Assembly: GCA_021769885.1 (NCBI GenBank)
Contig: JAETSA010000003.1
Span: 1-64,000 of the forward strand
DNA from: Bacillota bacterium
Lineage (GTDB): Bacteria > Bacillota > Clostridia > Oscillospirales > Acutalibacteraceae
Direction: 5' to 3'
DNA: 64,000 nucleotides
Under the pieces are notes generated by a model. It saw only the letters and a program-made list of their open reading frames with translations, searched no databases and was not told where the DNA came from. How positions within the stretch are numbered: position 1 is the first letter of the stretch; each line of letters starts with the position of its first letter. Position numbers and translations under genes: made by a program. Shown piece after piece: positions 4,944-28,080 of the stretch.

Positions 4944-5095
4944 CTGAGATGTTCGATTACTTACACTTGGTACAAATATATTCGGGCACTGTTTTTGCAT
5001 AAGGTGACCGCATTCGAAACCAATGCGCCGAAACCTTGTCCTTGCGGCGGCTTTTCACGTTTGCGCCCTTGTCGGGCGACAGCCCGACGGCGGTC

Positions 5096-6790: not shown

Positions 6791-6824
6791 ATATATTGCA
6801 CCTCTTTCTGAAAGGATTTTACCT

Positions 6825-7499: not shown

Positions 7500-7796
7500 C
7501 ATATCGAGGATCTGCGCCTTCGGTCTTGCGCCGACAGATTGGTTCACAATCTTGCCGTCCTGCATCACGACCAGCATCGGAATGCTCGCCACACCAAACG
7601 CCTGTGCCAGCTCCGGCTCTTGATCCACATTTATCTTTCCGACAAGGTACTGCGGGTTTTCCTCTGCGATTTCATCCACTAAGGGAGATACCATACGGCA
7701 CGGGCCGCACCAGTCGGCGTAGAAGTCGAGAAGCACGGGCTTATCGCTGTTTTGAACAACTCCGAAATTGTTTTTATTTACACTGAGAACTGACAT
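7488..7796 (-). CDS. trxA: Thioredoxin
   Basis: This 102-residue protein has the full thioredoxin fold with active site DWCGPC (cysteines 30 and 33) and the conserved cis-proline segment ASIPMLVV. It reduces protein disulfides in the cytoplasm using electrons from thioredoxin reductase, which is not encoded in this window. The gene stands alone. A TATAAT-like promoter lies about 30-45 bases upstream (7830-7840 on the minus strand) and GAAAGGAAA precedes the ATG. Its 3' end overlaps the convergent Crp/Fnr gene. With the neighbouring reductase-rhodanese and regulator it forms a small thiol-redox neighbourhood. Confidence 0.96.
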   Translation of the reverse strand: MSVLSVNKNNFGVVQNSDKPVLLDFYADWCGPCRMVSPLVDEIAEENPQYLVGKINVDQEPELAQAFGVASIPMLVVMQDGKIVNQSVGARPKAQILDMLEG

Positions 7797-8270
7797 GATT
7801 TATCATTTCCTTTCTTTTGTTTGTGATTATATTATACTCTGATTTTACTTTTCTTTCAGTGACACGGTCACATTTTTTCTTTGCAAGTCTGCTGCGCCAT
7901 CACGCGCATCAAGCAGTATATATACAGACAATAGTGAAGGTAAGCATCACGCTGTAAAGTCCAACGGCAAATGATGCCGCTGTTATATCCATAAGTATAC
8001 AGCAGAAATTTTTATTATACCACAATTTCATTGTGCAAAGCACAATGGGCGGCGTAGCCGCAGGGCGTTAGCCCAAATTGATGATACAATGTTCTCCGAA
8101 GCTCTTGAAATCTATGATTTCTTAGAGTTAGAGATTCGTGAGGTTATTATACCGTGACATAGTCACAGTTTCTCTATACACAGCAAAGAACGGCACCGCA
8201 GTCAAGACGGTTGACGCCTCGCCATACGATTCTCTTCTCGCCTTCTCCCCTCCCTCGGACAACGGTTGCA

Positions 8271-8305
8271 AAAAAGCAGACGTCCTGAAAACTGTCTGCT
8301 TTTTA
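8271..8305 (+). terminator. Rho-independent terminator
   Basis: AAAAAGCAGAC pairs with GTCTGCTTTTT around a 12-base loop. The flanking A and T runs make it bidirectional. Confidence 0.7.
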
Positions 8306-8550
8306 TTTGTGAGGTATGAAAAATGTATCTTTAACGCGTGCGTTTACGTTAAAAAAAAGCAGAAAGCCCCGCACGCAAATAGCATACCGAGACTTTCGAT
8401 TGCCTGTGGGGTACGAAAAGATGTTTTTGCGTTTTTAACGAAGAGAGTTGAACGCTTGCGCCGGGGCACTCCCGATTTACCGCATTTCGAGTCAAGTGTC
8501 AAAAAACGAACTTGGCGGAATTTAACGGAAGATAAAACACCTTAACCGAA

Positions 8551-8583
8551 CCCCCGCGCTCCCCGTGATTGCGGGCTTTTTTG
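8551..8583 (+). terminator. Rho-independent terminator
   Basis: CCCGC and GCGGG form a short GC stem followed by CTTTTTTGC. It would insulate the defence operon from transcription on its left. Confidence 0.6.
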
Positions 8584-8863
8584 CACCTGAAATCTGCGAA
8601 AGTACCGCCATTATTTAAGTCGCGGACTTTTCTCATTATATAGCAGTTCTAATCAAAATCCAATGAAAATGATTAGAACTCCGCATAGAAATGCCCCTTT
8701 TCTGGCCTGAAAATCACCCGTTTGGCAGTGCATCACAGAGACGGTGTTACGCCGCACAACACCAAAAGTCGTGTGCTATTAGGAAAGAGAAGAATGAATA
8801 AAGCGATTTTATTATAAACTTTGAGCAATGTAATAAATTCTGCTGAGAACACACGATTATTTA

Positions 8864-8892
8864 TTGAAAAGACCGTCGAATTATGATATAAT
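8864..8892 (+). promoter_or_regulatory. Promoter of the DISARM operon
   Basis: TTGAAA (8864-8869) and TATAAT (8887-8892) are 17 bases apart, about 50 bases before the HTH gene. No other strong promoter is seen until the end of the operon near 23.1 kb. Confidence 0.8.
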
Positions 8893-8943
8893 ATATTTGT
8901 ACAATAATGGAAGACTTGAATTTAGATTGAATGAGGTGCTGAA

Positions 8944-9144
8944 ATGCCTGTAGATTATAAAAAGCTTTGGATTCTTCTGATTGAAAAGGGAATTACTAAA
9001 CCGCAGCTCCGTAAAGCGGCGGACATATCTCCATCCACATTTACGAAACTAAATAAAAACGAGTTGGTGTCTATGGAAGTGCTGGTCCGGATCTGCAAGG
9101 TACTGGACTGTGATTTTGGAGATATTGTGGAAGTAGTGAGATAA
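8944..9144 (+). CDS. Small XRE/Cro-C1 type HTH regulator
   Basis: This 66-residue protein consists of little more than a Cro/C1-type helix-turn-helix (about residues 15-60; KPQLRKAADISPSTFTKLNKN, then VLVRICKVLDCDFGDIVEV). It resembles the small controller proteins that often precede restriction-modification and DISARM genes and probably regulates the operon from its own promoter. A GAGGTG site precedes the ATG. The cytosine methyltransferase follows 26 bases downstream on the same strand. The sequence shows no second domain or ligand pocket. Confidence 0.88.
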   Translation: MPVDYKKLWILLIEKGITKPQLRKAADISPSTFTKLNKNELVSMEVLVRICKVLDCDFGDIVEVVR

Positions 9145-9170
9145 ACTCGTTTTCAGAGAAGGATTTGTTT

Positions 9171-10466
9171 ATGTGTATTGAAAAAAGTAACACTGTAGAA
9201 CAAACTTATAACTTTATAGATTTGTTTGCAGGAGCGGGCGGTTTGTCAGAGGGATTTTTACAGGCCGGTTTTAAACCAATAGCGCATGTTGAGATGAATA
9301 AATTCGCTGCAAAAACACTTGAAACAAGAAGCGCTTATTATTATCTAAAAGGTATCAATAATCTTAGTTTGTATAAAAAGTATTTATCTGGAACAATTAG
9401 CCGAGAAAATTTTATGAAGCAGATCCCTGCTTCAATAACTAAAACTATAATTAATGAAATAATGTCGGATGAAACTTTACCTGCTATTTTTAAAACCATT
9501 GATGGAATAATGAAAATCAGAGGTATTGCTAAGATAGATGTTATTGTTGGTGGCCCCCCATGTCAAGCATACTCACTTGTCGGAAGGGCGCAAAGCAGCC
9601 ATATGGAAATACCTATGGAAGAAGATCCACGTAATTACTTGTACAAACTTTATGCACGGTTTTTAAAACGCTACCAGCCTCGGATGTTCGTTTTTGAAAA
9701 TGTTACAGGAATAGAATCTGCCAATGGCGGAGTAACTTGGAAAAATATTCAGAAATACTTGAAACGTGTCGGATATGAAATTGAGTGTAGAGAGCAGAAT
9801 GCTCATACATTTGGCGTTCTCCAAAACAGACGTCGAATGATTATTGTAGGTTGGCTTAAAAAAAGTGGATTGAAATATCCGGATTTTTTGGAAATCAAAA
9901 CTGATGCCATTGTTAATGACCTCTTTTACGATTTGCCTAAGTTGCATCCAGGAGAGAGTTCTAATAAATATGCAAAATCAAAAGCAAGAAATTACGTGAT
10001 TGAATCGGGAATCAGGACAAAAGATGATGTGCTAACGCTCCATAATTGCCGGCCGAATTTAGAACGAGATATAAAGATATACAGGCGTGCAGTTGAACTA
10101 TGGAACGATGGTCATAAACGATTAAATTATAATGATCTGCCGGAAGAACTCAAGACCCATAAAAACAGGCACTCTTTTACGGATAGATTTAAGGTGGTTG
10201 AAGGTGACGAATCATGTTGTCACACTATATTGGCGCATCTATCAAAGGATGGGCACTATTTTATTCATCCCGATATTGAGCAAAATAGATCCATTACTGT
10301 TCGTGAAGCAGCGCGAATACAGTCTTTCCCCGACAGTTATTTCTTTGAAGGGCCACGTACTGCGCAATTTGTGCAGATAGGGAATGCTGTGCCACCAATT
10401 ATGGCGAAAGGAATTGCAATGGGAATCTTTGAGCAGTTGTACAAGGGTGATCTTAATGGAAAGTAA
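9171..10466 (+). CDS. DNA (cytosine-5-) methyltransferase, DrmMII-like
   Basis: The 431-residue protein shows all core C5-methyltransferase motifs. Motif I is DLFAGAGGLSEGF near residue 16, the catalytic PCQ loop is GGPPCQAYS near 127, and ENV is near 175. QNRRRMIIVGW is motif VIII, RSITVREAARIQSFPDSY is motif IX, and QIGNAVPPIMAKGIA is motif X. A variable target-recognition region lies around residues 250-340. An insert of about 60 residues between motifs I and IV is long for the family. It would methylate cytosine to mark self DNA. I prefer ATG 9171, with AGAAGG eight bases upstream, over an upstream TTG at 9165. Its end overlaps the SNF2 gene by 11 bases, showing tight coupling. Class 2 DISARM loci carry a cytosine methylase of this kind. 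Confidence 0.93.
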   Translation: MCIEKSNTVEQTYNFIDLFAGAGGLSEGFLQAGFKPIAHVEMNKFAAKTLETRSAYYYLKGINNLSLYKKYLSGTISRENFMKQIPASITKTIINEIMSDETLPAIFKTIDGIMKIRGIAKIDVIVGGPPCQAYSLVGRAQSSHMEIPMEEDPRNYLYKLYARFLKRYQPRMFVFENVTGIESANGGVTWKNIQKYLKRVGYEIECREQNAHTFGVLQNRRRMIIVGWLKKSGLKYPDFLEIKTDAIVNDLFYDLPKLHPGESSNKYAKSKARNYVIESGIRTKDDVLTLHNCRPNLERDIKIYRRAVELWNDGHKRLNYNDLPEELKTHKNRHSFTDRFKVVEGDESCCHTILAHLSKDGHYFIHPDIEQNRSITVREAARIQSFPDSYFFEGPRTAQFVQIGNAVPPIMAKGIAMGIFEQLYKGDLNGK

Positions 10467-13074
10467 CTTGATACTTCAGCAATTTAGTAGATATAAAAAA
10501 ATGCAGCTTAAAACATCGCCGTTTCACTTCCTTTTAGATGCAAACATAGAATTGAATCCTCATCAAATTAATGCTTTTTGTGCGGCTATCCAAGCAGTCA
10601 AAACGGGCGGTATTATATTAGCTGATGAAGTTGGACTAGGAAAAACTATAGAAGCTGGACTTGTATTAAAGTATGTCCTTGATTCTGGAGCAAAACGTGT
10701 TCTAATTGCTCTTCCGGTATCTTTGCGGAAACAGTGGGAGTTAGAGTTAGAGGAAAAATTTGATCTCGAATGTACCATTCTCGATAGATTTACAGTGGAA
10801 AAAGAAAGTCATGCATGGCAAGAAAGGCTTACAGATAATAGAATTACAAGAATAATACTTACTTCGTATGACTATTCTTCTAAATTAATTAGGAGATTTC
10901 CTGAGGTTAAGTGGGACTTTATTATTATAGATGAAGCGCATAATCTAAGAAATGTATTTCATGGGACCAAAAGAGCGAAAAATCTTTATGAATTATCAAA
11001 AGGAATTCCGAAAATTCTTTTGACCGCTACACCACTTCAAAATTCATTGACAGATCTTCATGGATTGGTGTCTTTTATAGATTATAGGATTTTTGGAGCG
11101 GAGAGGGTTTTTAATAAACGGTATATTGAAGGTCAGGATTATTCTGATTTAAAGCAAGAATTATCGCCGGTTCTATATAGAACACTGCGTAAGGATGTAG
11201 CAAAATATATGAGTTTTAAGAAGAGAACTTGCAAAACCGTAGATTTTGCTCTTTCGCCTGATGAAATAGAACTTTACCAACGTGTAAATGACTTCTTGAA
11301 GAGAGAAATTTTATATTCTATCCCTACATCTAACCGAGCGTTGATAATTCTAGTCATAAGAAAGTTGCTTGCCTCTTCAAGTTTTGCATTAATAGAAACT
11401 TTTGAAATTTTGAAAAAGAGACTGGAGACTCTATATGCTGGCAGCAAATCTGCAAGTGCGCAGGAGGGCTTTGATCTTTTTTGGAGTTTTGTTGAAGATG
11501 AGATCGATGAATCAGGTTTTGAAGAGACGGAGGATGAAGAAACAACTATACAAAAGAGGTTTATTCAAGCTGAATTAGATGAAGTAAATACGATTATTGA
11601 TGTCGCTAAGCGAATAAAAACAAATGCGAAAGTGACAGCACTTAAGTCTGCTATACAAATAGCTTTTGAGCATCACGTTTCGCATGGACTTCCAGAAAAA
11701 GTTGTTATTTTTACAGAGTCGAAGCGTACACAGAAATACATAGCTTCTGAGCTTCGAAACAATGGGTTTGAAGATGAAGACATAATTCTTTTTAACGGCG
11801 ACTTTGACGACGTTATGACAAAAGAAATATATAGGGCGTGGCAGGTTAAAAATTTTGGTAAAATCAATTACGGTCGAAGTGTGGAATATAAACACGCTAT
11901 TGTGGACTATTTTAAAAATAATGCAAAGATTCTGATTTGCACAGATGCTGGTTCGGAAGGATTGAATCTTCAGTTTTGCAATACTGTTATAAATTATGAT
12001 CTGCCGTGGAACCCAATGAAAATTGAGCAGAGAATCGGACGCTGCCATCGTTATGGACAGGAACATGACGTTGTTGCAATAAATCTGTTAAATATGCAAA
12101 ACGCTGCTGATCAACGTGTTTATGATATTTTATCAAAAAAATTCACATTGTTTGAAGGCGTCTTTGGTGCATCAGATATCGCTCTTGGAGCATTAGAATC
12201 TGGCACAAGCTTTGAGAAAATGGTACTGGAAATTTACCAAACTTGCAACACGACAGCGGAGTTTCAAAAAGCTTTTGATAAATTGGACCGGAAATTAAAT
12301 GCTAAAAGAGATAAAAAAGCAAGACAACTTCGTACCATTCTTCTAACAGAGAGTAGTGCTGCAAAAGAACAATCTCTCCATTTCACAAAACAACAGATTG
12401 ATAAATATTTATATGAAGTTGAATATTGGGATAAATTTGATGATCCCGAAGTAGACGGGAATCTCTATTATTGGAAAGTCGATCATTGGGGAATGGATGT
12501 TTTAGGCTCACATGGTACTCTTTTTATCGGAGCATTTTGTGATTCGTCAAAATTTTTGTTTCCAATATTACTTTTATGTGATGAAAATGGAAATTACATA
12601 GATTTTGATGAGGCGGAACTTGTACAAGCACTTGAGCAAATAGATGATATGAATGTGCGGTATTTTTCTCCGTCTGAATCGGAAATGAAGCTATATCAGC
12701 AAGTGTACGACAATTTAACCACTGAGATGGTAAAAAAATATCAGAAACAGACAGAACCAATAAAGGCATACAACAGGCAGAAAATTGAAAACTGGGAACG
12801 TATTCAGATGGAACAGCTGGTTGCGACCTACCAGGAAATGAATGCTGAAATTTCTGCTATGAAAGAGCAGGAACGAGCATCGGATAATTTTTATGAGAAA
12901 ATAGACATACGGAAAAAGATTACAGAGAAATCCAATGCTCTTGAAAAGTTCCAAGAATCATTTCATGAGAAAGGTACTGGGTTCAAGATCGAAGGAGAGC
13001 GGGAAATCTCAGAATTTGAAAAACAGTTTGACATTAAACCGATTTTGTTAGTTAATATCGTACTGAAGTTTTAG
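10456..13074 (+). CDS. drmD: SNF2-family helicase, DrmD-like
   Basis: This 872-residue protein has the two RecA lobes of SWI2/SNF2 ATPases. Walker A is DEVGLGKTIEAG near residue 57, Walker B is IIIDEAHNL near 157, motif III is LTATPLQN, and motif VI is EQRIGRCHRYGQ near 523. A charged, coiled-coil-like C-terminal extension follows (about 740-860). Class 1 DISARM uses an SNF2 protein (DrmD) as accessory factor, and this gene's place in the operon fits that role in translocating along or remodelling incoming DNA. The ATG at 10456 overlaps the methyltransferase stop, and a longer upstream start would overlap that gene further. No nuclease motif is evident. The mod gene follows 11 bases downstream. 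Confidence 0.9.
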   Translation: MESNLILQQFSRYKKMQLKTSPFHFLLDANIELNPHQINAFCAAIQAVKTGGIILADEVGLGKTIEAGLVLKYVLDSGAKRVLIALPVSLRKQWELELEEKFDLECTILDRFTVEKESHAWQERLTDNRITRIILTSYDYSSKLIRRFPEVKWDFIIIDEAHNLRNVFHGTKRAKNLYELSKGIPKILLTATPLQNSLTDLHGLVSFIDYRIFGAERVFNKRYIEGQDYSDLKQELSPVLYRTLRKDVAKYMSFKKRTCKTVDFALSPDEIELYQRVNDFLKREILYSIPTSNRALIILVIRKLLASSSFALIETFEILKKRLETLYAGSKSASAQEGFDLFWSFVEDEIDESGFEETEDEETTIQKRFIQAELDEVNTIIDVAKRIKTNAKVTALKSAIQIAFEHHVSHGLPEKVVIFTESKRTQKYIASELRNNGFEDEDIILFNGDFDDVMTKEIYRAWQVKNFGKINYGRSVEYKHAIVDYFKNNAKILICTDAGSEGLNLQFCNTVINYDLPWNPMKIEQRIGRCHRYGQEHDVVAINLLNMQNAADQRVYDILSKKFTLFEGVFGASDIALGALESGTSFEKMVLEIYQTCNTTAEFQKAFDKLDRKLNAKRDKKARQLRTILLTESSAAKEQSLHFTKQQIDKYLYEVEYWDKFDDPEVDGNLYYWKVDHWGMDVLGSHGTLFIGAFCDSSKFLFPILLLCDENGNYIDFDEAELVQALEQIDDMNVRYFSPSESEMKLYQQVYDNLTTEMVKKYQKQTEPIKAYNRQKIENWERIQMEQLVATYQEMNAEISAMKEQERASDNFYEKIDIRKKITEKSNALEKFQESFHEKGTGFKIEGEREISEFEKQFDIKPILLVNIVLKF

Positions 13075-13085
13075 GAGAGAGCATT

Positions 13086-14732
13086 ATGCAGAAAACAGGA
13101 AAACTTGAGTTAACATGGGTTGGTAAATATGATGAACCATCTGTGGAGCCGAGAATATTGCTGGAAGATAAAAGTAAATCATATGGTGATCCAACCAGTG
13201 AAAATATGTTGATTCACGGAGATAATCTGATTGCTTTGCAGGCGCTACAACAGGATTTTGCCGGAAAAGTCAAGTGCATATATATTGATCCACCATTTAA
13301 TACGGGGGCTAGAATAAATGCCTCTGGGACCACAATTGGATATGATGATGGAATTGAACATTCTACTTGGCTTAATATGATGTATAAAAGGCTAATCTTA
13401 TTATCAAATTTACTTTCGGAAAACGGAAGTATATATGTCCATATCGATAATAGAGAGCAAGCTTATTTGAAAGTTATTATGGATGAAATATTTGGCCGCA
13501 ATAATTTTATCCAAATGATTTCTGTAAAACGAGCATCACCTGCAGGATTTAAAGTAATTAATCCAGGGCCACTTACAGTTACAGATTATATTCTATTGTA
13601 TGCAAAAGATAAATCTCAAATGGAATACTTTCCTCAAAGAATACCTGTTGACTATGATGAAAATTATAATCTTATTATTGAAAATCCACAAGATCCAGCA
13701 GAACTATGGAGGTTTAGAAAACTTGTAGATATGCTTTATGAAAAGCATGGATTTTCTAGCTGGAAAGATGCAAGAAAAGAATGGGGAAGTAATTGGAAAA
13801 AAGTTCGTAATAGTCTTCTTGGAGATTTAGCGCTTGAGTATTGTGACTATATAGTATCGGTCCGCGACCCTCATAAGCCGTCCGCACTTATAAAAGAAAA
13901 AATGAAGGAGTCAAAATATAATGATAATAAAGTCATAGTAATAGATCGAACAAATTACTCTCCGATTTATATATATCAAGGAGGGTCATTGTCATTTTAT
14001 AAGGATAAATTACGGAATATTGATGGGCAGTTAGTGCCGACGGAATTACTTACGGATTTTTGGTCGGATATAAATTTTGCTGGTATGGCAAAAGAAGGTG
14101 GCGTACAATTTAAAAATAGTAAGAAGCCAGAGATGTTATTGCGTCGAATTTTAGAACTGTCCACAAGGCCAGGCGATTTGGTTTTGGATTCATTTTTGGG
14201 AAGCGGAACGACAGTAGCCGTTGCTCAAAAAATGAAGCGCCATTGGATCGGAATTGAGATGGCAGAACATTGTTATACTCATTGTAAGCCTAGATTAGAT
14301 ATGGTTATAGATGGATCAGATCAAAGTGGAATAAGCAAAAATGTTGGATGGCAAGGAGGTGGCGGGTATCACTTCTATGAACTCGCCCCCAGTTTGCTTG
14401 TCAAAAATGATAAAATACCGATTTATCAGATAAATCCTACCTATACGTTTGAGATGCTCTGTGAAGCTATTTGTAAAATCGAAGGATTTCGATATAAACC
14501 AAAAGATGTTTTCCACGGATACTCTTCTGAAAGGCATTTCATCCATGTTACAACAGAATTCATAAATGCCGGATACATAAAATCGCTGTCCGCGCGGCTT
14601 GCCGAAGGTCAGTCTCTTCTGATTTATGGAACAAAAATACAGTCGGATATGGTTTTGCCTGACAATATTGAGGTTAAGAAAATTCCGAAAGATCTTCTGG
14701 AAAAATGCGATTTTGAAAGCGAGGTACAATAA
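13086..14732 (+). CDS. Type III Mod-like DNA methyltransferase (adenine N6 or cytosine N4)
   Basis: The 548-residue protein has the beta-class order of amino-methyltransferases. The catalytic motif DPPFNTG is near residue 68, and the SAM-binding DSFLGSGTT is near 369. A long target-recognition region lies between, and an additional C-terminal domain of about 150 residues follows. This is the layout of type III Mod subunits and related adenine methylases. DPPF in place of the more usual DPPY is a common variant. It probably methylates the target for self-protection and would give Res its sequence specificity. It takes the position of DrmMI in class 1 DISARM, although canonical DrmMI is usually of another methylase subfamily (inference from memory). 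A GGAGAG site precedes the start. The res gene begins on the base after its stop. Confidence 0.88.
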   Translation: MQKTGKLELTWVGKYDEPSVEPRILLEDKSKSYGDPTSENMLIHGDNLIALQALQQDFAGKVKCIYIDPPFNTGARINASGTTIGYDDGIEHSTWLNMMYKRLILLSNLLSENGSIYVHIDNREQAYLKVIMDEIFGRNNFIQMISVKRASPAGFKVINPGPLTVTDYILLYAKDKSQMEYFPQRIPVDYDENYNLIIENPQDPAELWRFRKLVDMLYEKHGFSSWKDARKEWGSNWKKVRNSLLGDLALEYCDYIVSVRDPHKPSALIKEKMKESKYNDNKVIVIDRTNYSPIYIYQGGSLSFYKDKLRNIDGQLVPTELLTDFWSDINFAGMAKEGGVQFKNSKKPEMLLRRILELSTRPGDLVLDSFLGSGTTVAVAQKMKRHWIGIEMAEHCYTHCKPRLDMVIDGSDQSGISKNVGWQGGGGYHFYELAPSLLVKNDKIPIYQINPTYTFEMLCEAICKIEGFRYKPKDVFHGYSSERHFIHVTTEFINAGYIKSLSARLAEGQSLLIYGTKIQSDMVLPDNIEVKKIPKDLLEKCDFESEVQ

Positions 14733-17378
14733 ATGTCTGCAATAGTAAATAAGATAAAATATGCAATGAGCCTCAGGGTCCCTCAGGAGGAGGCTCTCTC
14801 TTACCTCGATGCCATCAGTTCGCATTGTGATTACAAAAAAGACAGCAAGGATGATGTAGAAAAAGCTGCATCAGAGCACTGTGAAAAACAGAGAAAAATT
14901 AAAGCCGGGTTTGATTTTCCATCTTTCTGTTATGCTATGGCCACCGGTATAGGAAAAACTCGTCTGATGGGCGCTAGTATTTATTATCTGTATAAAACAA
15001 AGGGATATAAGCACTTCTTTATTCTTGCTCCTGGGAATACAATTTATGATAAATTACGCAAGGAGTCCAACCCTAATCACCCGAAGTACATATTTAAAGG
15101 GCTGGAATCCGAGATGGGCAGACCAAAGGTATATGACGGGGAGAATTATGACACTTATCCAGTGAAATTTGAACAGACAACTCTTTATATTGAAAAAACA
15201 TCCGAGATTCAGCTTTTCATCTTTAACATTGGAAAAATCTTTAATAGTAAGACGGATACACAGTTTAACTTTCATAAATTTAAAGAAACGTTAGGTGCTT
15301 CTTTTGCAGATGTGTTGGCACAGTTTGATGATCTTGTAATCTGTATGGATGAAGCGCATCGCTACTATGCCCCTGCTTCAATGAAAGCAATCAATTATTT
15401 GAAGCCTATTCTCGGGCTGGAGTTTACTGCTACCCCTAAGAATACATCGAATGTAATTTACGCTTACGACTTAGCTCGCGGTGCCGCTGAAGGATATTTA
15501 AAGATTCCTGTTGTTATGGGTCGTTCTAATATGGCGGGATATAATCAAAATGATATTGAAGAAATGAAAATTCGAGATGGTCTCACATTACACGAGCATC
15601 GCAAATCTGTGCTACGGGAATATTGCAGCGACAAAGATGTGGATTATGTGAAGCCCATAGTTCTGATCGCCTGTAAAGATACTGACCATGCAAAGAAAAT
15701 ACGTGCACTAATAGACAACGAGAATTTTTTGAACGGGAAGTACAAAGGAAAGGTAATTGAGATCCACTCAAAACAGACCGGTGAGGAATCAGAGGAAAAT
15801 ATTCGTCTTTTGCTCTCTATAGAAAATGCTTCGAACCCAATCGAAATCGTTTTGCACGTTTATAAGTTGAAAGAAGGTTGGGATGTTAATAACCTTTTTA
15901 CTATAATCCCGCTTAATGCGGCAAAGAGCGACATTCTTGCTATGCAGACTATTGGGCGTGGTTTAAGACTGCCATTTGGAGAACAGACGGGAAATGAAGA
16001 TTTGGACTCTCTTGATATTGTTGCACATGACCACTATAGAGAACTTGTAGACGAAATTAAAAGTAGCGATATCTTCCGTTATCGCGACCTTGATAAAACG
16101 GTGATTGAACAATCTGAATCAGTAGATGTATCTGCCACTGTAGACGACGGACAACTTTCGTTTTTGGATTCTGCTATCTCAGCATCTGGTGTAAAGTCAT
16201 TTTCCGAAGTCAACAATCCAAAAACGCAGCTCGAGATTTATCAAGAATATGTCAAAAATTTTATGTCTGCACAGAAAAAGGACAAAACTGTAGAAGCCAA
16301 TCAGATGACACTGTTTGACACTTTCTCTGACACGCTTGCTGATAATAATATTGAGTCTGGAACAACGGTAGAGCAACAATCATTAAAAAACAAAAAATCT
16401 GGAAATCAACCTCTCAGTAAAGAAGAATTTGCAAAAGCAGTGTCGGAGTATTCAGCAAAGGCTATTTCTGTTCCGAAAATTCTTGTGCAGACTACTTCGG
16501 AAGTTAAGTTTAATCATTTTGAAGTGAAACGTACAATTTCTGATTTTGAGGTCGCTATGGCAAAGATTGAGCGTTTTGACGCAATTAATCAGCAACTTCT
16601 TTCTGTTGTGGATGCACAGATTCTTGAAGTCAATGATGCTATGAATACACTTGCCTGCATGCTCCTAGATTCAATTAGTGAATTATCCTATGACGATGCA
16701 GATTTTGTTATTGATGTGGTCGAACAGTATCTTGGTCAGATACCTGGCGATGAAGAAAACAAGCGGAGGATTGTTCGTCGATACGCTTCACTAATTGTGG
16801 CTGATATTCGTAATCAGATTTATCAGCATATGGATAGAAAGACGCAGGATATCCACATCATTCAGAAGGACCTTATTCTATTTCGCAAATTTGTAAAAAA
16901 TGTCAAGGACGGTGGTAAGGTTAAATATAATAATCCTTTCTCAGATAAAAGCAATATCAAAAAATACTTGTTTACCGGTTATAAAAAATCGTATTATCCG
17001 GCAAATGCGTTTGATAGCGATACGGAGCGTTTGTTCTCTATCATTTTGGAAGAAGATCCGGACGTACTTCGTTGGATTAAGCCACCTTTGAATCAGCTGG
17101 GGTTATTTTGGAAAGCTGGACAGCAGTATAATCCCGACTTTCTTGTGGAGACAACTACGGGGAAATTCATGGTTGAAGTTAAGGCGCTGAACGAAGTAAC
17201 TTCAGAAGAGGTTGTATCTAAGGCCAGAGAAGGAATCAAGTGGTGTAGATTTGCTTCTACGGCTGATCCCGATCATAAGCAGTGGGAATATAGACTTATT
17301 TCTGATGACAATATTCATATTGGAAACACCTGCAAATATACGCTTAGTACGGCACATACAGTGGAGGAGGAGGCATAA
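14733..17378 (+). CDS. Type III Res-like helicase with C-terminal PD-(D/E)xK nuclease
   Basis: This 881-residue protein has a DEAD/DEAH helicase core. Walker A is ATGIGKTRL near residue 70, Walker B is CMDEAHRYY near 204, LEFTATPKN follows, and motif VI is QTIGRGLRLP near 405. The C-terminal block NPDFLVETTTGKFMVEVKA (about 800-818) has the PD...ExK arrangement of restriction nucleases. This matches type III Res subunits. The immediately preceding Mod-like gene (stop and start adjacent) would be its partner, so these two genes alone look like a type III restriction system. Its stop overlaps the DrmA start (TAATG), tying it into the DISARM core. An additional helicase-nuclease is not part of the standard DISARM gene list. 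Confidence 0.88.
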   Translation: MSAIVNKIKYAMSLRVPQEEALSYLDAISSHCDYKKDSKDDVEKAASEHCEKQRKIKAGFDFPSFCYAMATGIGKTRLMGASIYYLYKTKGYKHFFILAPGNTIYDKLRKESNPNHPKYIFKGLESEMGRPKVYDGENYDTYPVKFEQTTLYIEKTSEIQLFIFNIGKIFNSKTDTQFNFHKFKETLGASFADVLAQFDDLVICMDEAHRYYAPASMKAINYLKPILGLEFTATPKNTSNVIYAYDLARGAAEGYLKIPVVMGRSNMAGYNQNDIEEMKIRDGLTLHEHRKSVLREYCSDKDVDYVKPIVLIACKDTDHAKKIRALIDNENFLNGKYKGKVIEIHSKQTGEESEENIRLLLSIENASNPIEIVLHVYKLKEGWDVNNLFTIIPLNAAKSDILAMQTIGRGLRLPFGEQTGNEDLDSLDIVAHDHYRELVDEIKSSDIFRYRDLDKTVIEQSESVDVSATVDDGQLSFLDSAISASGVKSFSEVNNPKTQLEIYQEYVKNFMSAQKKDKTVEANQMTLFDTFSDTLADNNIESGTTVEQQSLKNKKSGNQPLSKEEFAKAVSEYSAKAISVPKILVQTTSEVKFNHFEVKRTISDFEVAMAKIERFDAINQQLLSVVDAQILEVNDAMNTLACMLLDSISELSYDDADFVIDVVEQYLGQIPGDEENKRRIVRRYASLIVADIRNQIYQHMDRKTQDIHIIQKDLILFRKFVKNVKDGGKVKYNNPFSDKSNIKKYLFTGYKKSYYPANAFDSDTERLFSIILEEDPDVLRWIKPPLNQLGLFWKAGQQYNPDFLVETTTGKFMVEVKALNEVTSEEVVSKAREGIKWCRFASTADPDHKQWEYRLISDDNIHIGNTCKYTLSTAHTVEEEA

Positions 17379-20300
17379 TGGCCGATAGGTTTAAATATTC
17401 AGAGGTTAGACAGAAAATTATAAATGCCATACATACTGATCTTATTGGTCCCTTAGATGAAAATGAGGTTCTTGATGAGAATCCTCGTTATGCGTATCTT
17501 GTGGGCATGCTCGATATGCAGAGTAATGATGAAAATTATTCTGGTGCAGGTGAACAGGAAGTTGACACCGATATAGCTTTTGAGGATGGCGAAGATTTTA
17601 CAGCTGGTGAAGACGATGATAATGAACCTATCTCTACTACTCGTTTTCAGCTTCCATCATCTATAGGTATTAGCTTTTACATCCAAAACGAGACAAAAAA
17701 TATAAATTTAGATGTTGTATGGGGTGATTATGTAAAATCCTCTGAAACATATACCGGCAAGGATGAGAAGGAACATGTCCGCGCAATATATACACGTCAT
17801 CCTATGGCAGAAACAATTCATGTCAATTTTAATGATTTTAACAGAACAAAGGATTATCAGCTCGTTTGCGACTCTAATGTTCATGTTCATGTTTCCCGTA
17901 TATCATTAAAAGGTGGATATTCACTTGTAACGGCATATGTTATCAATAAAAGGAAGAATCCAGAGAATAGTGCAGAAGCCATAATGTTTCAAGTTGAAAT
18001 AAAGGCCTATGCGGAGGATAACTCAGCGATATTTCTTGCTGAGCATATTTGCAGAAAAATTCTTGAAGCAGATGAGTTCTATTTTGAGCAGCGCCCAATT
18101 ATGGGACGCGGTCGAGGTTGTGCAGCGATCTGGGATACACCAATAGACGGAAAAACTACCTGCGTAAAGTCAGCGTTTATACCGGAATATGAATTTCCTG
18201 GGGTAAGTGCTGCATTGGATGGATTTGATAGATATTTCTTTTCTACATTTACAATGTCTGTGAAGTCGAAGAAGGCTGAAACGATCGACAAATTAAATAC
18301 GCTTGCAGCATCTTATGAAACTTGGATTAATAATATCCTGCTTGGGAATGTAAGGATGGAGAATCCTAACTTTAAGGAGAAGATCGGGAACAAAGTTATA
18401 GAACGGTGTCAAGATGCTTTAAAACGTATTCGTGAAGGAATTCATATAATTGAAACAGACGATATTTCATTTGAAGCGTTTTGTTTTATGAATCGTGTAA
18501 TCTTTTTGCAAAACAGTATTAAGCGTTATGCAAAGAAGCACGGAGCGGGTATAGAATGTAATTTTCAGGATTTCGTTAATCCCAAAAATGATGATAACAA
18601 TTTTGGATGGCGGCCGTTTCAGATTGCTTTTATTTTGATGAATCTGGCCGGAATAGTTGACCCACGCCATAAAGATCGTGAAGTCGTGGACTTGCTATAT
18701 TTCCCTACAGGCGGAGGTAAAACAGAAGCATATTTGGGACTTATGGCTTTTACTATTGCAAATAGACGACTTAGAGCAACAGAAGAAGGCAAATATAATC
18801 TTGATGGTGGAGTGACTGTAATGCTCCGATATACTCTTCGATTACTTACCACTCAACAGAGGGATCGTATCACTAAAATGGTACTTGCTGCCGAAATGAT
18901 CAGGAGAAACGCCTACCCGAGGTTTGGAAGAGAACCAATTAGCATTGGCTTTTGGGTTGGAGGCGGGGTTACTCCTAATAAGTTTGATGATTTCAACGAA
19001 AAGAAAGATGAACCAAAAGCGGCGGCAAACGCAAGAAATCGCATATACAAGCAGCTTCTCACTTGTCCGTTCTGTGGAGAACGGCTGAAAGAAGAAAATT
19101 TTAATATTGATATTAATAAGAAATCAATAGAAATTTTTTGTTCTGACCGTAATTGTGAGTTTTACAAATATAATAACAATAGAATCTCAATTCCGGTGTA
19201 TCTTGTAGATGAGGAAATATACGCTAAGTGCCCCACCATTATTTTGTCAACTGTCGACAAATTTGCTCGCCTTCCTTGGGATGAGAAAACGAATGCCTTG
19301 TTTGGACGTGTCGATCGAAAATGCAGTCGTGACGGATATGTTGCAGTTGGAGTAGAGCATAGCAAACACAATAGAACAAACTCCCTACCAGCTTCGGCGC
19401 TCACAAATATCAGGCGTTTTCTTCCTCCAGAGCTGATCATTCAGGATGAACTTCATCTTATTACCGGACCACTTGGCACTATATATGGTGCTTATGAGAC
19501 GATCATCGAGGATATGTGTAGCTATGACGGCATTAAACCAAAATATGTTGTTTCAACAGCAACAATTAAAAATGCAGAAGCACAAACAAAATGTTTGTAT
19601 GCCAGAAAAAATACCTCACAATTTCCACCTAATGGCTTTGAAATCGGTGATAGTTTCTTTATCCGAGAAATTCCAACGAATCGTGATCCGTTTCGAAAGT
19701 ATGTAGGTATTTGTGCACCTGGACAGTCTGTAAAAACTGCTTTGCTACGAGTTTATTCGATTATACTTCAAGCTGCATATACATTTTCACAGCGAGAAGA
19801 ATACAAAGATGTGATCGATCCATACTATACTTTGGTCGGATACTTTAACAGTATTCGGGAACTTGGTGGCGCAGTTAGGCTTTTGCAAGACGATATCCCG
19901 AAAAGAATATATCGAATTAAAAATAAATACGGATTGGATAAACAGCGATACCTTAACCACAATGTTGAGATTACGTCTCGTATGTCATCTTACAAAATAC
20001 CAGAAAAATTGAATCAGCTTGAAACCCCTTTTACTTCTAAGGAATGCTTAGATACTGCTATTGCGACAAATATGATTGCTGTAGGTATGGATGTAGATCG
20101 TCTTGGATTGATGGTAGTAACTGGACAACCGAAGCAGAATTCTGAATACATACAGGCAACAAGCCGTATCGGACGTGCTTTTCCAGGATTAGTGGTAACG
20201 CTTTATAATGCGTACAGACCAAGAGATTTGTCTCATTATGAAAATTTCACGGGATATCACTCTCAGCTATATAGGTTTGTGGAAGGAACAACAGCAACAC

Positions 20301-20701
20301 CATTTTCAGCAAGAGCTAGAGACCGTGTCTTGCATGCATTAGTTATTTCGGCAATAAGGTTGAACTTTCCTAGTATGGCAAATAATTCAGATGCTAATGC
20401 AATTGATACCTTAACAACTGAGCAGCTTGATTCAATCAAAAGCTTGATAATTGATAGACTCAATATTATTAAACCGTCTGCAAAAGCGGATGCAGAGGAC
20501 GAAATAGATCAGTTCATTGATTGCTGGAAGCTACAAGCAGCACAGACAAAACCTCTTCGCTATTATGTTGTTGGAACAGAACGGTATAACAGATTAATGA
20601 ATCCGTATGATCAGCCGCATAATGAAAATGAGAAGGCAACTTTGAGTTCGATGCGCGAAGTTGAAAGCTCTGCGAATATGTTTTACTACACGGAGGAATA
20701 A
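17378..20701 (+). CDS. drmA: DrmA, DISARM core helicase
   Basis: The 1107-residue protein is a large atypical superfamily 2 helicase. Walker A is FPTGGGKTEAYLG near residue 443, the Walker B equivalent is QDELHLITGPLG near 688, VSTATIKNA is motif III, and ATSRIGRAFPG is motif VI near 925. A zinc-finger-like set CPFCGERL ... CSDRNC lies near 562-590. The combination of a DELH box, this length and a following DUF1998 gene is diagnostic for DrmA. In DISARM, DrmA works with DrmB as the DNA-binding, ATP-driven core that acts on incoming phage DNA. The start overlaps the res stop by one base, and drmB begins two bases after its stop. Confidence 0.94.
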   Translation: MADRFKYSEVRQKIINAIHTDLIGPLDENEVLDENPRYAYLVGMLDMQSNDENYSGAGEQEVDTDIAFEDGEDFTAGEDDDNEPISTTRFQLPSSIGISFYIQNETKNINLDVVWGDYVKSSETYTGKDEKEHVRAIYTRHPMAETIHVNFNDFNRTKDYQLVCDSNVHVHVSRISLKGGYSLVTAYVINKRKNPENSAEAIMFQVEIKAYAEDNSAIFLAEHICRKILEADEFYFEQRPIMGRGRGCAAIWDTPIDGKTTCVKSAFIPEYEFPGVSAALDGFDRYFFSTFTMSVKSKKAETIDKLNTLAASYETWINNILLGNVRMENPNFKEKIGNKVIERCQDALKRIREGIHIIETDDISFEAFCFMNRVIFLQNSIKRYAKKHGAGIECNFQDFVNPKNDDNNFGWRPFQIAFILMNLAGIVDPRHKDREVVDLLYFPTGGGKTEAYLGLMAFTIANRRLRATEEGKYNLDGGVTVMLRYTLRLLTTQQRDRITKMVLAAEMIRRNAYPRFGREPISIGFWVGGGVTPNKFDDFNEKKDEPKAAANARNRIYKQLLTCPFCGERLKEENFNIDINKKSIEIFCSDRNCEFYKYNNNRISIPVYLVDEEIYAKCPTIILSTVDKFARLPWDEKTNALFGRVDRKCSRDGYVAVGVEHSKHNRTNSLPASALTNIRRFLPPELIIQDELHLITGPLGTIYGAYETIIEDMCSYDGIKPKYVVSTATIKNAEAQTKCLYARKNTSQFPPNGFEIGDSFFIREIPTNRDPFRKYVGICAPGQSVKTALLRVYSIILQAAYTFSQREEYKDVIDPYYTLVGYFNSIRELGGAVRLLQDDIPKRIYRIKNKYGLDKQRYLNHNVEITSRMSSYKIPEKLNQLETPFTSKECLDTAIATNMIAVGMDVDRLGLMVVTGQPKQNSEYIQATSRIGRAFPGLVVTLYNAYRPRDLSHYENFTGYHSQLYRFVEGTTATPFSARARDRVLHALVISAIRLNFPSMANNSDANAIDTLTTEQLDSIKSLIIDRLNIIKPSAKADAEDEIDQFIDCWKLQAAQTKPLRYYVVGTERYNRLMNPYDQPHNENEKATLSSMREVESSANMFYYTEE

Positions 20702-20702
20702 T

Positions 20703-22451
20703 ATGGCTTATGATAATAATAAACTAGGTGAGTTACGCCCCAATCAGATTATAACAACCTTTGGACCGGGTTCTGTTGTTGATGCGGTAAAGGATTCTGT
20801 CACTATTCTTGATATCTCATACTGGAAGCAGAGAGGGCAAAAGATAATCGATGGAAGGCTTGCATCGTATTTAGGTGTCGATTGTTTTTATATGCCTAGA
20901 ACAAGTTTCGCTGGAGATATTCCAGTAGTCACCTTTCCTTATTGGCATGTATGCTCTAATCTGAAGTGCGCTAGGCTTTTTGATGCCAGAAAATACTTTG
21001 ATTTAGATAAGTATCTTAAATATGGTGTAACCTGTCCAGAATGTCACCGGCCGGCTTATCCATCTCGCTTTATCACAATTTGCGAGGAGGGACATATGTC
21101 AGATTTTCCATGGAAATGGTGGGTACATAGGGGTAATTCAGATTGTAGTGGCACATTGAAAATGTATTCAACAGGTAATACATCTACTCTAGCCGATATG
21201 TGGGTTGAGTGTTCTTGTGGTGCAAAGCGTAGCTTGAGCGGTGCAACACAAAGAGATAATTTTGATGGAGTTACGTGTCTTGGGCATCATCCGTTTCGAC
21301 CAAATGTGAAAAATCAAAAATGCAATAAGCCAGTTATTCCGTCGCAAAGAGGCGCCTCTAATGTCTATTTTGCTGTAACTAGAAGTGCGATTTCAATTCC
21401 TCCTTGGATCAATCCTCTTTATAATTTGATTGATGAACATCTTCGTGATATAGAGCTAGCAAATCAGCTTCTGGGGGCTGAAGGCATATCAAAAATATAT
21501 GATATGTACTTTTCCAAATATTTAAGAAATGAGTTTGATGAAGCGCTTGAACGTCGGATGAACAACATTAAAGAGTTTACAGAAATTAAGCAGATGGAGT
21601 ATAATGCCATAACGCATCATAATGACGCATCTTATGAGTCGAATAAGACTCATTTTAAAGCGGAAGAAGATACCTTGCCAATGTACCTGAAAAAATATTT
21701 TAGTCGCATCATTCGAATAACCAGACTTAGAGAAGTTCGCGTTCTTCTTGGTTTCACTAGAGTGGATGCTCCCGATCCAGATGCAGATGAGCAACCCAAT
21801 ATTGTCACATTAAGCAAAGGGAAAAAAGAGCGATGGCTTCCAGCAGCTGAAGTTAATGGTGAGGGTATTTTCATAGAATTCAATAAAGATACCCTCATAT
21901 CATGGATTAATTCTGAGGCTGTAGATGGTTTATCACAGAAGTATTCCGATTCGTATAGAGAGTTTTGTGAGTCGAAGGGATGGACAATTACAGTTGTGCG
22001 TAATGCGATATATGTTCTGATGCATACATTTGCACATTTAATGATAAAACAAATGTCATTATCATCAGGATACTCTTCATCGGCCATTAGAGAAAGAATA
22101 TACTTTGGAGATAAAATGTCAGGAATTCTATTATATACTGGCAGTGCCGATAAAGAAGGCTCGCTCGGAGGTTTAGTAGAGCTTGGAAATATTGAGCAGA
22201 TGACAACACTTATGAGGGATGCTTTCCAAGAAGCTTTGGTTTGTACAAACGATCCTGAGTGTATGAGTAATTTGCCAGCAGGGAAAAACTCTAATGGCTC
22301 TGCTTGTCACTCCTGTTGTATGATATCGGAAACGGCGTGTGAGAACGGAAACAGAATGCTTGATAGAGGTCTTGTAGTTCCTATCTCGGGGCGTGAGGAT
22401 TGTTCGTATTTTAAGGAATTGGTGAATGATTTATGCCAAGTGGAAATTTAG
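20703..22451 (+). CDS. drmB: DrmB, DUF1998 protein of DISARM
   Basis: This 582-residue protein carries the DUF1998 region near residues 430-500 (YVLMHTFAHLMIKQMSLSSG followed by GILLYTGSADKEGSLGGL). Several cysteine clusters probably bind zinc: CSNLKC near 82, CPEC near 110, ICEEGH near 125, CSCGAK near 168, and CHSCC with a downstream CENGN near 534. DrmB is the obligate partner of DrmA in the DISARM core complex. The start at 20703 has GGAGG six bases upstream; a longer reading that begins inside drmA is unlikely. Its 3' end overlaps drmC by 19 bases. Confidence 0.94.
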   Translation: MAYDNNKLGELRPNQIITTFGPGSVVDAVKDSVTILDISYWKQRGQKIIDGRLASYLGVDCFYMPRTSFAGDIPVVTFPYWHVCSNLKCARLFDARKYFDLDKYLKYGVTCPECHRPAYPSRFITICEEGHMSDFPWKWWVHRGNSDCSGTLKMYSTGNTSTLADMWVECSCGAKRSLSGATQRDNFDGVTCLGHHPFRPNVKNQKCNKPVIPSQRGASNVYFAVTRSAISIPPWINPLYNLIDEHLRDIELANQLLGAEGISKIYDMYFSKYLRNEFDEALERRMNNIKEFTEIKQMEYNAITHHNDASYESNKTHFKAEEDTLPMYLKKYFSRIIRITRLREVRVLLGFTRVDAPDPDADEQPNIVTLSKGKKERWLPAAEVNGEGIFIEFNKDTLISWINSEAVDGLSQKYSDSYREFCESKGWTITVVRNAIYVLMHTFAHLMIKQMSLSSGYSSSAIRERIYFGDKMSGILLYTGSADKEGSLGGLVELGNIEQMTTLMRDAFQEALVCTNDPECMSNLPAGKNSNGSACHSCCMISETACENGNRMLDRGLVVPISGREDCSYFKELVNDLCQVEI

Positions 22452-23092
22452 ATAAAGAAATATTTTTGAATACAGTCAAAAGTGATTATGTAAATGGAAC
22501 AATAAATGCATTACCATTGCTTAAAAGAAATTGCCCGGAATTATCTGATGCTCATTGCCAAGATATTGTAGAATTGATTATTGGTGCAATGGAAATGCCC
22601 AAAGCAGATAAAGTATCTCTTGTGGTGACTGCACCACCTTCGTTTTCTATTAATGCAAGAACAACCATGAATGTAGTTCAGTCAATAATAAACGGTGCAG
22701 ATAGAAATATCCTGATTACGGGGTATTCTTTATCTTCGTATTTTTCTGAACTAGTTGATACAATTATTCTAAAAAGTCAGCGTGGGGTATTTGTGAAGTT
22801 TTTTGCCAACGATATTGATAAGCAACCTGAATTTGAAAAATTACTTAGATATAAGGGACGTTTTCTTAAAATTTATAATTACCCTCAAAAAGATGATAAA
22901 ATGTCTGCTCTCCACGCAAAGGTTATTTCAGTTGACCAGAGGCAAACTTTAATAACCTCAGCAAATCTGTCTTATCATGGGCAACAAGGTAATATAGAAC
23001 TTGGAACATTGATAGAATCAAAACATATCGCAAAACAAATAGAAGATATTTTTACTAAACTGATATTTTCTAAAATATTTAATGAAGTTTAG
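22433..23092 (+). CDS. drmC: DrmC, phospholipase D-like protein of DISARM
   Basis: The 219-residue protein has a single PLD active-site motif, HAKVISVDQRQTLITSANLS near residue 160 (HxK with a downstream SANLS), plus a PLD-like N-terminal segment (ITGYSLSSYFSELVDTI). Single-HKD proteins dimerise to form one nuclease site. DrmC is the third DISARM core gene and a candidate nuclease, although its contribution to protection varies. The overlap with drmB indicates translational coupling. It is the last gene of the operon; the next gene has its own ribosome binding site about 110 bases downstream and a different composition. Confidence 0.93.
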   Translation: MPSGNLDKEIFLNTVKSDYVNGTINALPLLKRNCPELSDAHCQDIVELIIGAMEMPKADKVSLVVTAPPSFSINARTTMNVVQSIINGADRNILITGYSLSSYFSELVDTIILKSQRGVFVKFFANDIDKQPEFEKLLRYKGRFLKIYNYPQKDDKMSALHAKVISVDQRQTLITSANLSYHGQQGNIELGTLIESKHIAKQIEDIFTKLIFSKIFNEV

Positions 23093-23200
23093 TTTTTATA
23101 AATGCTTAATCTCTTAGCATCTTTTAAATGTAATCTTATTTTTCTCTGGACTTTTTACCTTCTTTGTGGTATGTGTTTGTGTTGCAAAGGAGGTATTACA

Positions 23201-23473
23201 ATGGCACAAATCAGCATAGAAGAATTATACCGCGGCGAGGGAGGCGGCGAAAAGTACGGCGTCGGCGGAATTATGGGAGCGGTCATCAAGGATTTGTTCG
23301 CGAACGGAATTCCGGACGGTTATGACGGAGTGCTTTGGATGGAACTTCTCACTGTAAAATACACGCTGATAGCGGCGGAACAAATGAAACAAGAGGGCGA
23401 CTTTGTATCGGGAATGACTGATACAGAGCCGCTCTCTTTGCATAAGGAGGAAAATTCAGATGACGACGCTTGA
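23201..23473 (+). CDS. Hypothetical small protein of a mobile element
   Basis: A 90-residue acidic protein starts at ATG 23201 behind a strong AAAGGAGGT. A longer frame from 23102 reads through non-coding sequence and is rejected. The protein begins MAQISIEELYRGEGGGEKYG and shows no domain I can name. Its end overlaps the next small gene by 14 bases, and the two resemble each other in their first residues (ISIEELYRG against TTLEDLYYG), so it may be a distant member of the same family. GC content is back to that of the wider chromosome, unlike the DISARM operon. Confidence 0.65.
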   Translation: MAQISIEELYRGEGGGEKYGVGGIMGAVIKDLFANGIPDGYDGVLWMELLTVKYTLIAAEQMKQEGDFVSGMTDTEPLSLHKEENSDDDA

Positions 23474-23744
23474 AGATCTATATTACGGAAATATTCATCC
23501 ATACGAGCGGGATATGAAGAAGACCTGCAGAGAATCTACACTGCTCCGTCTCGTAGTCAAAAACGAAAATGACCTGCTGGCAACGCTCACAGAACAGCAA
23601 AAAGAAATCTTTCAAAAGTGCAAAGATGCAGAAAGTGAAATGCACTGCGCATTTGAACTGAGGTCATTTATTGAAGGATTCCGCCTTGGTATGAAACTGA
23701 CAGCGGAAGGAATGTACTGTACGGAGGAAACAGACGAAGATTAA
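23460..23744 (+). CDS. DUF6809 family protein
   Basis: This 94-residue protein with start MTTLEDLYYGNIHPYERDMK and a later AFELRSFIEGFRLGMKLTAEG matches the small helical DUF6809 proteins of Firmicutes. These are frequently carried on integrative elements. Function is unknown. It overlaps the preceding small gene and ends before a strong bidirectional terminator. No signal peptide or membrane segment is present. Confidence 0.75.
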   Translation: MTTLEDLYYGNIHPYERDMKKTCRESTLLRLVVKNENDLLATLTEQQKEIFQKCKDAESEMHCAFELRSFIEGFRLGMKLTAEGMYCTEETDED

Positions 23745-23920
23745 AGCAAAAGCTGCATCCAAAACAAGCTGCAAATTGGCTTTAATTATAGGCGAAAACG
23801 CCCGCTGTAAAGCGCCTGTGCGCGCGTTTAAGCGCACCTTTCACCATCTGCAGGAAAGTTGATCGGCAAGAGATATTCATCCCCTAAACGGCGAAAATTA
23901 CGCCGCTTTTGAGCGGGCAC

Positions 23921-23959
23921 AAAAAGGCTGCTGAAACCTATGATTTCAGCAGCCTTTTT
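23921..23959. terminator. Bidirectional terminator
   Basis: AAAAAGGCTGCTGAAA pairs perfectly with TTTCAGCAGCCTTTTT around a seven-base loop, between the convergent DUF6809 and DUF6076 genes. Confidence 0.9.
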
Positions 23960-23979
23960 GCATTGGTTTATTTAATTTC

Positions 23980-24696: not shown

Positions 24697-24698
24697 AA

Positions 24699-26933: not shown

Positions 26934-26937
26934 AAAG

Positions 26938-26961: not shown

Positions 26962-26977
26962 TACATAAGGAGTCAAT

Positions 26978-28007: not shown

Positions 28008-28029
28008 AAAATAACCCCCAAAAATAAAG

Positions 28030-28060: not shown

Positions 28061-28080
28061 CGCGGTCTAAGCCGCATTTT

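Follow-up and report, generated by a model that had tools for sequence, protein, structure and literature searches.

A DISARM operon with a three-gene type III restriction-modification system between DrmMII and DrmA, very probably inherited as a unit

The described systems closest to the locus reported here are DISARM and the type III restriction-modification (RM) systems that carry an extra ATPase. PADLOC, as its published description puts it, defines class 1 DISARM by DrmMI and class 2 by DrmE (PMC9252829), and an account of Serratia DISARM already reports two methylases, of both types, in one system (PMC9142583). Murray et al. (2021) described type III systems that form N4-methylcytosine (m4C) and encode a helicase-like ATPase 5' of mod, counting them in over 500 genomes; Eco86II and BspHIV are named there as type III RM systems with an extra ATPase (PMC8259958). 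Here we describe an operon from a Bacillota bacterium of the Acutalibacteraceae (assembly GCA_021769885.1), found in the first 64,000 nucleotides of contig JAETSA010000003.1, hereafter the window. This one operon very probably joins a DISARM core (DrmMII, DrmA, DrmB and DrmC) to a three-gene type III RM system (an SNF2-like ATPase, Mod and Res), and the whole appears to have been inherited as a unit over a long divergence.

All eight open reading frames (ORFs) of the operon lie on the + strand within window positions 8864-23092:

8864-8892, + strand: sigma-70-like site, TTGAAA and TATAAT 17 nt apart with TG before the second hexamer (11 of 12 matches to the consensus)
8944-9144, + strand: helix-turn-helix (HTH) protein, Cro/C1-type (HTH_26), 66 aa (Pfam PF13443, 70 bits)
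9171-10466, + strand: C5-cytosine DNA methyltransferase, DrmMII (PADLOC DrmMII, 562 bits; Pfam PF00145)
10456-13074, + strand: SNF2/RapA-like ATPase (PADLOC DrmD model PDLC02619, 1514 bits; NCBIfam DrmD_b)
13086-14732, + strand: type III Mod, 548 aa (PADLOC MTase_III, 485 bits)
14733-17378, + strand: type III Res (PADLOC REase_III, 395 bits)
17378-20701, + strand: DrmA, YprA-family helicase, short form (PADLOC DrmA, 1100 bits)
20703-22451, + strand: DrmB, MZB Zn-binding partner of DrmA (PADLOC DrmB, 280 bits)
22433-23092, + strand: DrmC, phospholipase D-like nuclease with one HAK (HxK) motif (PADLOC DrmC, 321 bits)

An earlier note on this DNA, made from its letters, had described a promoter followed by eight packed, co-directional genes, with a Res start directly after the Mod stop and a Res stop overlapping the DrmA start. 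This layout was confirmed, each ORF being in its proposed place and the PADLOC, Pfam and NCBIfam names agreeing; the gap between SNF2 and mod is 11 bp. The Mod has the motif order of the beta class (DPPF, then FLGSGT) and an exchangeable target recognition domain (TRD) at about aa 150-340, and it adjoins a Res that carries the superfamily 2 (SF2) ATPase motifs GIGKT, DEAH and QTIGRGLR and a C-terminal PD-(D/E)xK-type motif, PDF...EVK. The block at 10456-17378, where the gene directly 5' of mod encodes a helicase-like ATPase, fits the ATPase-mod-res plan of Murray et al., to which we liken it by published gene plan: the gene order, the DPPY/F motif of Mod and the SF2 ATPase and PD-(D/E)xK-type motifs of Res are the same, whereas the window's set stands between DrmMII and DrmABC and its Res belongs to a separate clade. 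The note's suggestion that both 5-methylcytosine (m5C) and adenine methylases are present lacks support, as Mod could make N6-methyladenine (m6A) or m4C; DPPY/F is reported from m4C type III Mods (PMC8259958) and does not decide between the two.

The seven genes from the C5 methylase to DrmC stand in one order in 11 genomes including the window's, with locus L079 as a twelfth, so that the recurrence of Mod-Res-DrmABC as a unit, raised in the earlier note, was found complete in ten other genomes and cut short in one more. These composite loci occur in Bacillota and Bifidobacteriaceae, and all seven ORFs are whole in 10 of the 12. The junctions are tight throughout, from -4 to +3 bp between Mod and Res and from -1 to +17 bp between Res and DrmA in 12 of 12 loci, and the C5 methylase motifs GPPCQ and FENV are present in all of them. 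The strict patterns used did not pick up motif I of Mod in four loci (L003, L004, L077 and L078), DPP in the frame-broken L081 Mod, DEAH in the Res of L078 or SRIGR in the DrmA of the four full subclade-B proteins. A contig scan with DrmA, made with patterns taken from the window that favour near kin, yielded three loci, one each from Bifidobacterium thermophilum DSM 20210, an Erysipelotrichales genome and a genome of the Lachnospiraceae, and all three have these seven genes in this order; no close relative of DrmA was found on the viral contigs scanned.

Searches of whole genomes with Res gave matches in 1 of 40 relatives (the window's own genome), 6 of 398 genomes of the phylum, and 8 of 189 in the order of genome G398; the family to which the Bifidobacterium genome belongs gave 4 of 189, and that of the Lachnospiraceae genome 10 of 397. 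These sets overlap (G000, G398, G615 and G616 recur), and the distinct matches, all of which were read, represent 12 composite genomes (L002 counted in) and 16 others; the addition of 5 plasmid loci, picked by hand from 294 matching records, brought the non-composite Res loci to 21. Composite Res proteins are 57-100% identical to the window's (one of them in two pieces, at 62 and 52%), non-composite Res proteins of genomes are at most 46% identical to it, and every Res found at an identity of at least 57% sits in a composite locus. None of the 21 non-composite Res loci had a match to DrmA, DrmB or DrmC at E 1e-4 in the sequence fetched, which extends more than 3.5 kb downstream of Res in 17 and 0.5-1.7 kb in 4; SNF2 is present in 10 of them.

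The search was also made in reverse. Among the 398 phylum genomes 19 had a DrmA match, two of them near the window's (100 and 52% identity) and both composite, and among the 189 genomes in the order of G398 there were 12 with a match, of which two (86 and 52%) were again composite and the remaining 10 were judged by identity alone. The 189 genomes of the Bifidobacterium family gave 8 matches, four of them at 66-77%; two of these are composite and two are not. Near DrmA relatives without Mod-Res exist, namely L095 and L096, and from their sequences both look like decayed composites. Both lost Mod by internal deletion, together with nearly all of Res in L095 (region 11151-11838) and all of it in L096 (region 10846-14201), which makes them a natural experiment on what is left of the operon.

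Gene trees point to shared descent of the genes compared. The SNF2, Res and DrmA trees of 11 composites (L079, with no full DrmA and no DrmB, was left out) have 8 of 8 splits in common, the DrmB tree shares 7 splits with each of these, and the C5 methylase tree shares 6 with those three and 7 with DrmB. The Res proteins of all 12 composites form one clade, with 19 others outside it, in a tree that left out L072 and L073. Chance insertion of mod-res was rejected as an explanation on the strength of recurrence and matching gene trees. Of the kind of relative that the earlier note named as refuting its reading, one that lacks mod-res, two loci were found, L095 and L096, though both look decayed. 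Apart from Mod, the six genes have dN/dS values of 0.03-0.09 in pairs with dS below 1.5, except for DrmC in L002-L003 at 0.27; in pairs that include the window, dS was saturated or could not be computed.

Mod differs from the other genes in the behaviour of its TRD. Across eight pairs profiled, identity falls to 0-15% in the least similar 40-aa blocks of the Mod TRD, with the ends of the same Mods mostly at 70% or more, and in seven of the eight pairs most blocks of the C5 methylase, SNF2 and Res are likewise at 70% or more. The most divergent pair, L078-L035, has local dips in the C5 methylase and Res too, which limits the constancy of the C5 methylase to the window's group. Composite TRDs are matched in stand-alone systems at 73% (L035 with L072/L073), 67% (L074 with L071) and 52% (L067 with L085) identity; the window's TRD is 32% identical to that of a Salmonella plasmid Mod, L060, and a search with it matched 19 plasmid records, the best at 34%. 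These comparisons cover 25 TRDs (L003, L070 and L078 had no anchor, and the set leaves out L068, L081, L083 and every Mod ORF of at most 450 aa). The Mod TRD is swapped between most of the loci compared and is common to stand-alone systems. The matches to stand-alone Mods suggest that Mod draws on a common pool of type III specificities, and together with the divergence between conserved ends they indicate that Mod behaves in evolution as a specificity subunit. A check for simple repeats through which Mod might vary in phase found in the window's mod no run of at least 8 A or T, none of at least 7 G or C and no fivefold repeat of a 2-5-base unit; among 10 other composite mods, 3 have runs of 8-9 A, one of these with (TA)5 as well.

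The earlier note took the SNF2 protein for a helicase like the DrmD of class 1 DISARM, a view replaced here by a grouping with the ATPase of stand-alone SNF2-Mod-Res loci. In BLASTP the window's SNF2 scored 366-495 bits against the latter (the lowest being a split gene) versus 83-130 bits against class 1 DrmD of annotated DISARM plasmids (the lowest being a gene cut by the fetched stretch). A maximum-likelihood tree united the SNF2 proteins of 12 composite and 9 stand-alone loci and split them from 4 class 1 DrmD and an outgroup with support of 100/100, and each group holds (composites 99/99, stand-alone trios 97/96, class 1 100/100); this tree has a midpoint root and a long outgroup branch, with a warning that long branches meet, and it leaves out L064 (SNF2 in two ORFs) and L056 (drmD cut by the fetched stretch). 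On the BLASTP scores and this split, identity with class 1 DrmD was rejected. Because the SNF2 groups with the trio ATPases, it is a whole three-gene type III system that lies between DrmMII and DrmA.

Existing models already give part of the operon a DISARM name. NCBIfam DISARM_DrmD_b (NF038318) scores the window's SNF2 at 1484 bits versus a cut-off of 950, and this model, DISARM_DrmAS (NF038325) and PADLOC PDLC02619 show that curators had the SNF2 and DrmA in view as DISARM; Mod and Res, in contrast, match only general type III or methylase models, and the names do not reveal a composite. The PADLOC and NCBIfam DrmD models also score the stand-alone trios, at 626-700, under the NCBIfam cut-off of 950. 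Genes filed as DrmD thus form at least two branches, and the family names hide a second system. Stand-alone SNF2-Mod-Res loci often hold extra genes between SNF2 and Mod (L054, L060, L062, L094 and L099), among them AAA with DUF4276, Abi, AIPR with VapC, and AAA with an S8 peptidase.

DrmA was placed within DISARM, in line with the earlier note, as a clade of its own on the class 1 side. It matches the Serratia DrmA (PDB 7s9v) at 584 bits in an alignment that begins at Serratia residue 136, so that it lacks an N-terminal stretch, about the first 125 residues, of the Serratia protein. Class 1 DrmA is described as having an N-terminal EVE-like domain (PMC12458937), which would lie within the Serratia stretch absent here. 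In a tree of 35 DrmA proteins, built by a quick search with no bootstrap, 11 composite proteins form one clade with a Shimodaira-Hasegawa-like approximate likelihood ratio (SH-aLRT) support of 100; it stands beside one very long branch, L041, and apart from six class 1-labelled proteins, drmD being annotated in 5 of 6 of their loci.

The operon holds drmA, drmB, drmC and a DNA methylase and is in this broad sense DISARM, with DrmA, DrmB and DrmC in order and a C5 methylase; it differs in that it holds mod and res, its SNF2 lies off the class 1 DrmD branch and its DrmA forms an own clade. No DrmMI was seen among the best 25 of 56 matches of Mod or as a name in the NCBIfam scan, and the best matches of Mod, at 548 aa, are type III. 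DrmE was likewise absent among the best 25 matches listed for each operon protein and from the NCBIfam scan. The model names say DrmD and the tree separates the SNF2 from it, and DrmMII, which goes with class 2, is present (562 bits). By its gene content as predicted, the locus is outside both DISARM class definitions. In other DISARM loci, genes for UvrD-like helicases lie directly upstream of drmA (L038 7500-9872, L045 11372-13132 and L057 10172-11965), so that this position seems to accept different modules.

Other systems resemble the locus in part. A Cutibacterium acnes DISARM was reported to be disrupted by a 32.5-kb island carrying a type III system (PMC7365801), which likewise puts type III genes beside DISARM genes, but as an insertion that splits drmMI and not as an ordered operon. 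ARMADA, as described, combines a PglX-like methylase with a YprA helicase to which OB-CON-DUF1998 is fused (PMC12458937); in the window DrmA and DrmB are separate genes, and no PglX-like protein is among the matches listed. MADS was considered and rejected, as none of the window's eight operon proteins matched a MADS model at E 0.01 in a library that holds at least a MAD1 model, the other MAD models being assumed. In the Escherichia coli stand-alone trio L094, an HTH protein (2115-2315) received the NCBI name MAD1 at 81.3 bits versus a cut-off of 80, and none of its three neighbours scanned matched a MADS model. In the open-access literature searched we found no account of DISARM genes and Mod-Res as one operon.

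This operon bears on how DISARM picks its target and on the roles of the SNF2 and methylase genes of DISARM. Type III RM systems modify a single strand of an asymmetric site and cut between inverted sites that are unmodified. Unmethylated DNA reportedly stimulates DrmAB, which is said to prefer 5' overhangs, and DrmC is reported to be apparently non-essential in DISARM (PMC9142583). In our working model, which we find as easy to believe as to doubt, the two methylases would mark the host, Mod-Res would cut and DrmAB would take over. The host genome would be marked twice, by DrmMII at an m5C site and by Mod at an asymmetric site that can be exchanged. In incoming DNA that lacks the marks, Mod-Res would find its unmethylated sites, switch with ATP and cut, and the cut ends, with the phage's own single-stranded ends, would be the substrate on which an auto-inhibited DrmAB loads; DrmAB would then unwind the unmarked DNA for DrmC or Res to degrade, the SNF2 ATPase probably remodelling or stripping DNA for Mod-Res. 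Ends, and a further check of self versus non-self, would come from having a site-specific nuclease encoded in the operon. Gene content, catalytic motifs, co-inheritance, TRD exchange and purifying selection are what the sequence comparisons bring to this model; by analogy with published systems it adds how characterised type III systems with this plan behave and how DrmAB responds to unmethylated and 5'-overhang DNA, and it presumes that the window's Mod-Res and DrmAB are active and that Res hands over to DrmAB. A division of labour in which Res provides nuclease and specificity and DrmAB is the sensor is plausible.

Recurrence in distantly related bacteria suggests that two kinds of defence may work as one, and the composites point to a position upstream of drmA that accepts exchangeable ATPase-methylase modules. 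We tentatively propose, at a little under even odds, a third DISARM class in which Mod, Res and the ATPase would form a sequence-specific front end that licenses and cuts unmarked DNA and passes the ends to DrmAB-DrmC. If so, a swap of one Mod domain would retarget specificity, with the DrmMII mark and the DrmAB engine largely fixed. A module whose site-specific recognition and cleavage are well understood, set inside a DISARM operon, also makes the action of DrmAB on the ends left by a site-specific nuclease directly testable.

Taken as a whole, identity and mechanism together, a coupled composite of DISARM and type III genes has in our estimate a probability of about 0.55, and several observations weigh against it. 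The coupling of the two modules would be a link drawn from sequence. The extra ATPase was, in the report on Eco86II, not required for methylation, and its peptides were not seen in the preparation that cleaves (PMC8259958). Mod is frame-broken near aa 90 in L081 beside a full-length Res; L079 keeps the C5 methylase, SNF2, Mod and Res with a DrmA cut after about 115 aa and no match to DrmB or DrmC in the 8 kb fetched downstream; L095 keeps the C5 methylase, SNF2, DrmA and DrmB, with a shortened DrmC, no Mod and a C-terminal remnant of Res (42% identity over aa 753-871), so that the DISARM core may stand without Mod and nearly all of Res; and in L096 a cut C5 methylase runs straight into a frame-broken DrmA, Mod and Res being gone. 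One C5 methylase split dissents from the other trees (L035 with L080, SH-aLRT 99), some TRDs are common to composites and thus not always exchanged (L035-L079 87%, L004-L077 77%), and the searches of large sets scored only 2-4 candidates per genome, so that loci may have been missed. Much of this would suit two independent systems under one promoter, moved and expressed together and acting separately and additively: each half has stand-alone kin (SNF2-Mod-Res without DrmABC, DISARM without Mod-Res), one half is missing, wholly or in part, from L095 and from L079, and the extra ATPase is reportedly dispensable. We regard such independence as possible yet doubtful, because the gene trees agree, gene order and tight junctions persist where most proteins are at 37-65% identity, the type III block lies inside the DISARM operon between DrmMII and DrmA, and both one-sided losses are in loci with further damage or a truncated edge.

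The composite DrmA clade lies on the class 1 side of its midpoint-rooted tree (SH-aLRT 96), so that DrmA may be linked with class 1, which counts against our reading. The placement speaks for a true class 1 DISARM in which Mod replaced DrmMI, Res is accessory and the SNF2 is DrmD, as do the high scores of the PADLOC and NCBIfam DrmD models; the same models also score the stand-alone trios, and the BLASTP scores and the tree split set the SNF2 with those trios, which makes this improbable. It is also conceivable that DrmAB senses the mark of Mod and not that of DrmMII, with Res as its nuclease. The PD-(D/E)xK-type motif of Res agrees with that idea, and, DrmC being apparently non-essential, another nuclease could serve; against it, DrmMII is kept in 12 of 12 composites and is more constant than Mod, and a DrmC match is present in all of them except the truncated L079, and we consider it highly improbable.

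Features at the borders of the operon are less distinct. The sigma-70-like site is a consensus match only, one of 2 in the 64-kb stretch versus 2.1 expected from shuffles. The 66-aa HTH protein likely regulates the operon. Of the 11 other composites, 4 (L067, L078, L079 and L081) have a similar small HTH ahead of the C5 methylase and 2 (L077 and L080) have HTH proteins of other types there; none was seen in 4, and L035 has too little sequence in that place. Upstream of the C5 methylase in L002 and L003 lies the truncated start of a gene that resembles one for a large serine recombinase. Beyond DrmC the window holds:

23102-23473 and 23460-23744: small ORFs downstream of DrmC, the second DUF6809
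23920-23960, + strand: terminator-like hairpin of 17 pairs, a possible transcript end (consensus match only)
26004-26933: integrase gene

As the two small ORFs lie before the hairpin, the transcript may extend beyond 23092; 2 such hairpins were found versus 1.1 expected. The GC content in 2-kb windows is 0.35-0.39 over 8-24 kb versus 0.47-0.54 from 30 kb on, and because of this low GC and the nearby integrase gene, the block at 8-24 kb, and with it the operon, looks horizontally acquired by its composition. A search for integration repeats found no exact shared words of at least 13 between 5000-9300 and 23000-29500. Beside the operon, at 24699-27559, an AAA_25 ATPase, a tyrosine integrase and an HTH-like protein form the remains or part of a mobile element. 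A tRNA-Ser gene lies at 28081-28169, and 47 nt of its 5' part recur at 94% identity 192 bp away (28321-28367), perhaps as an integration scar.

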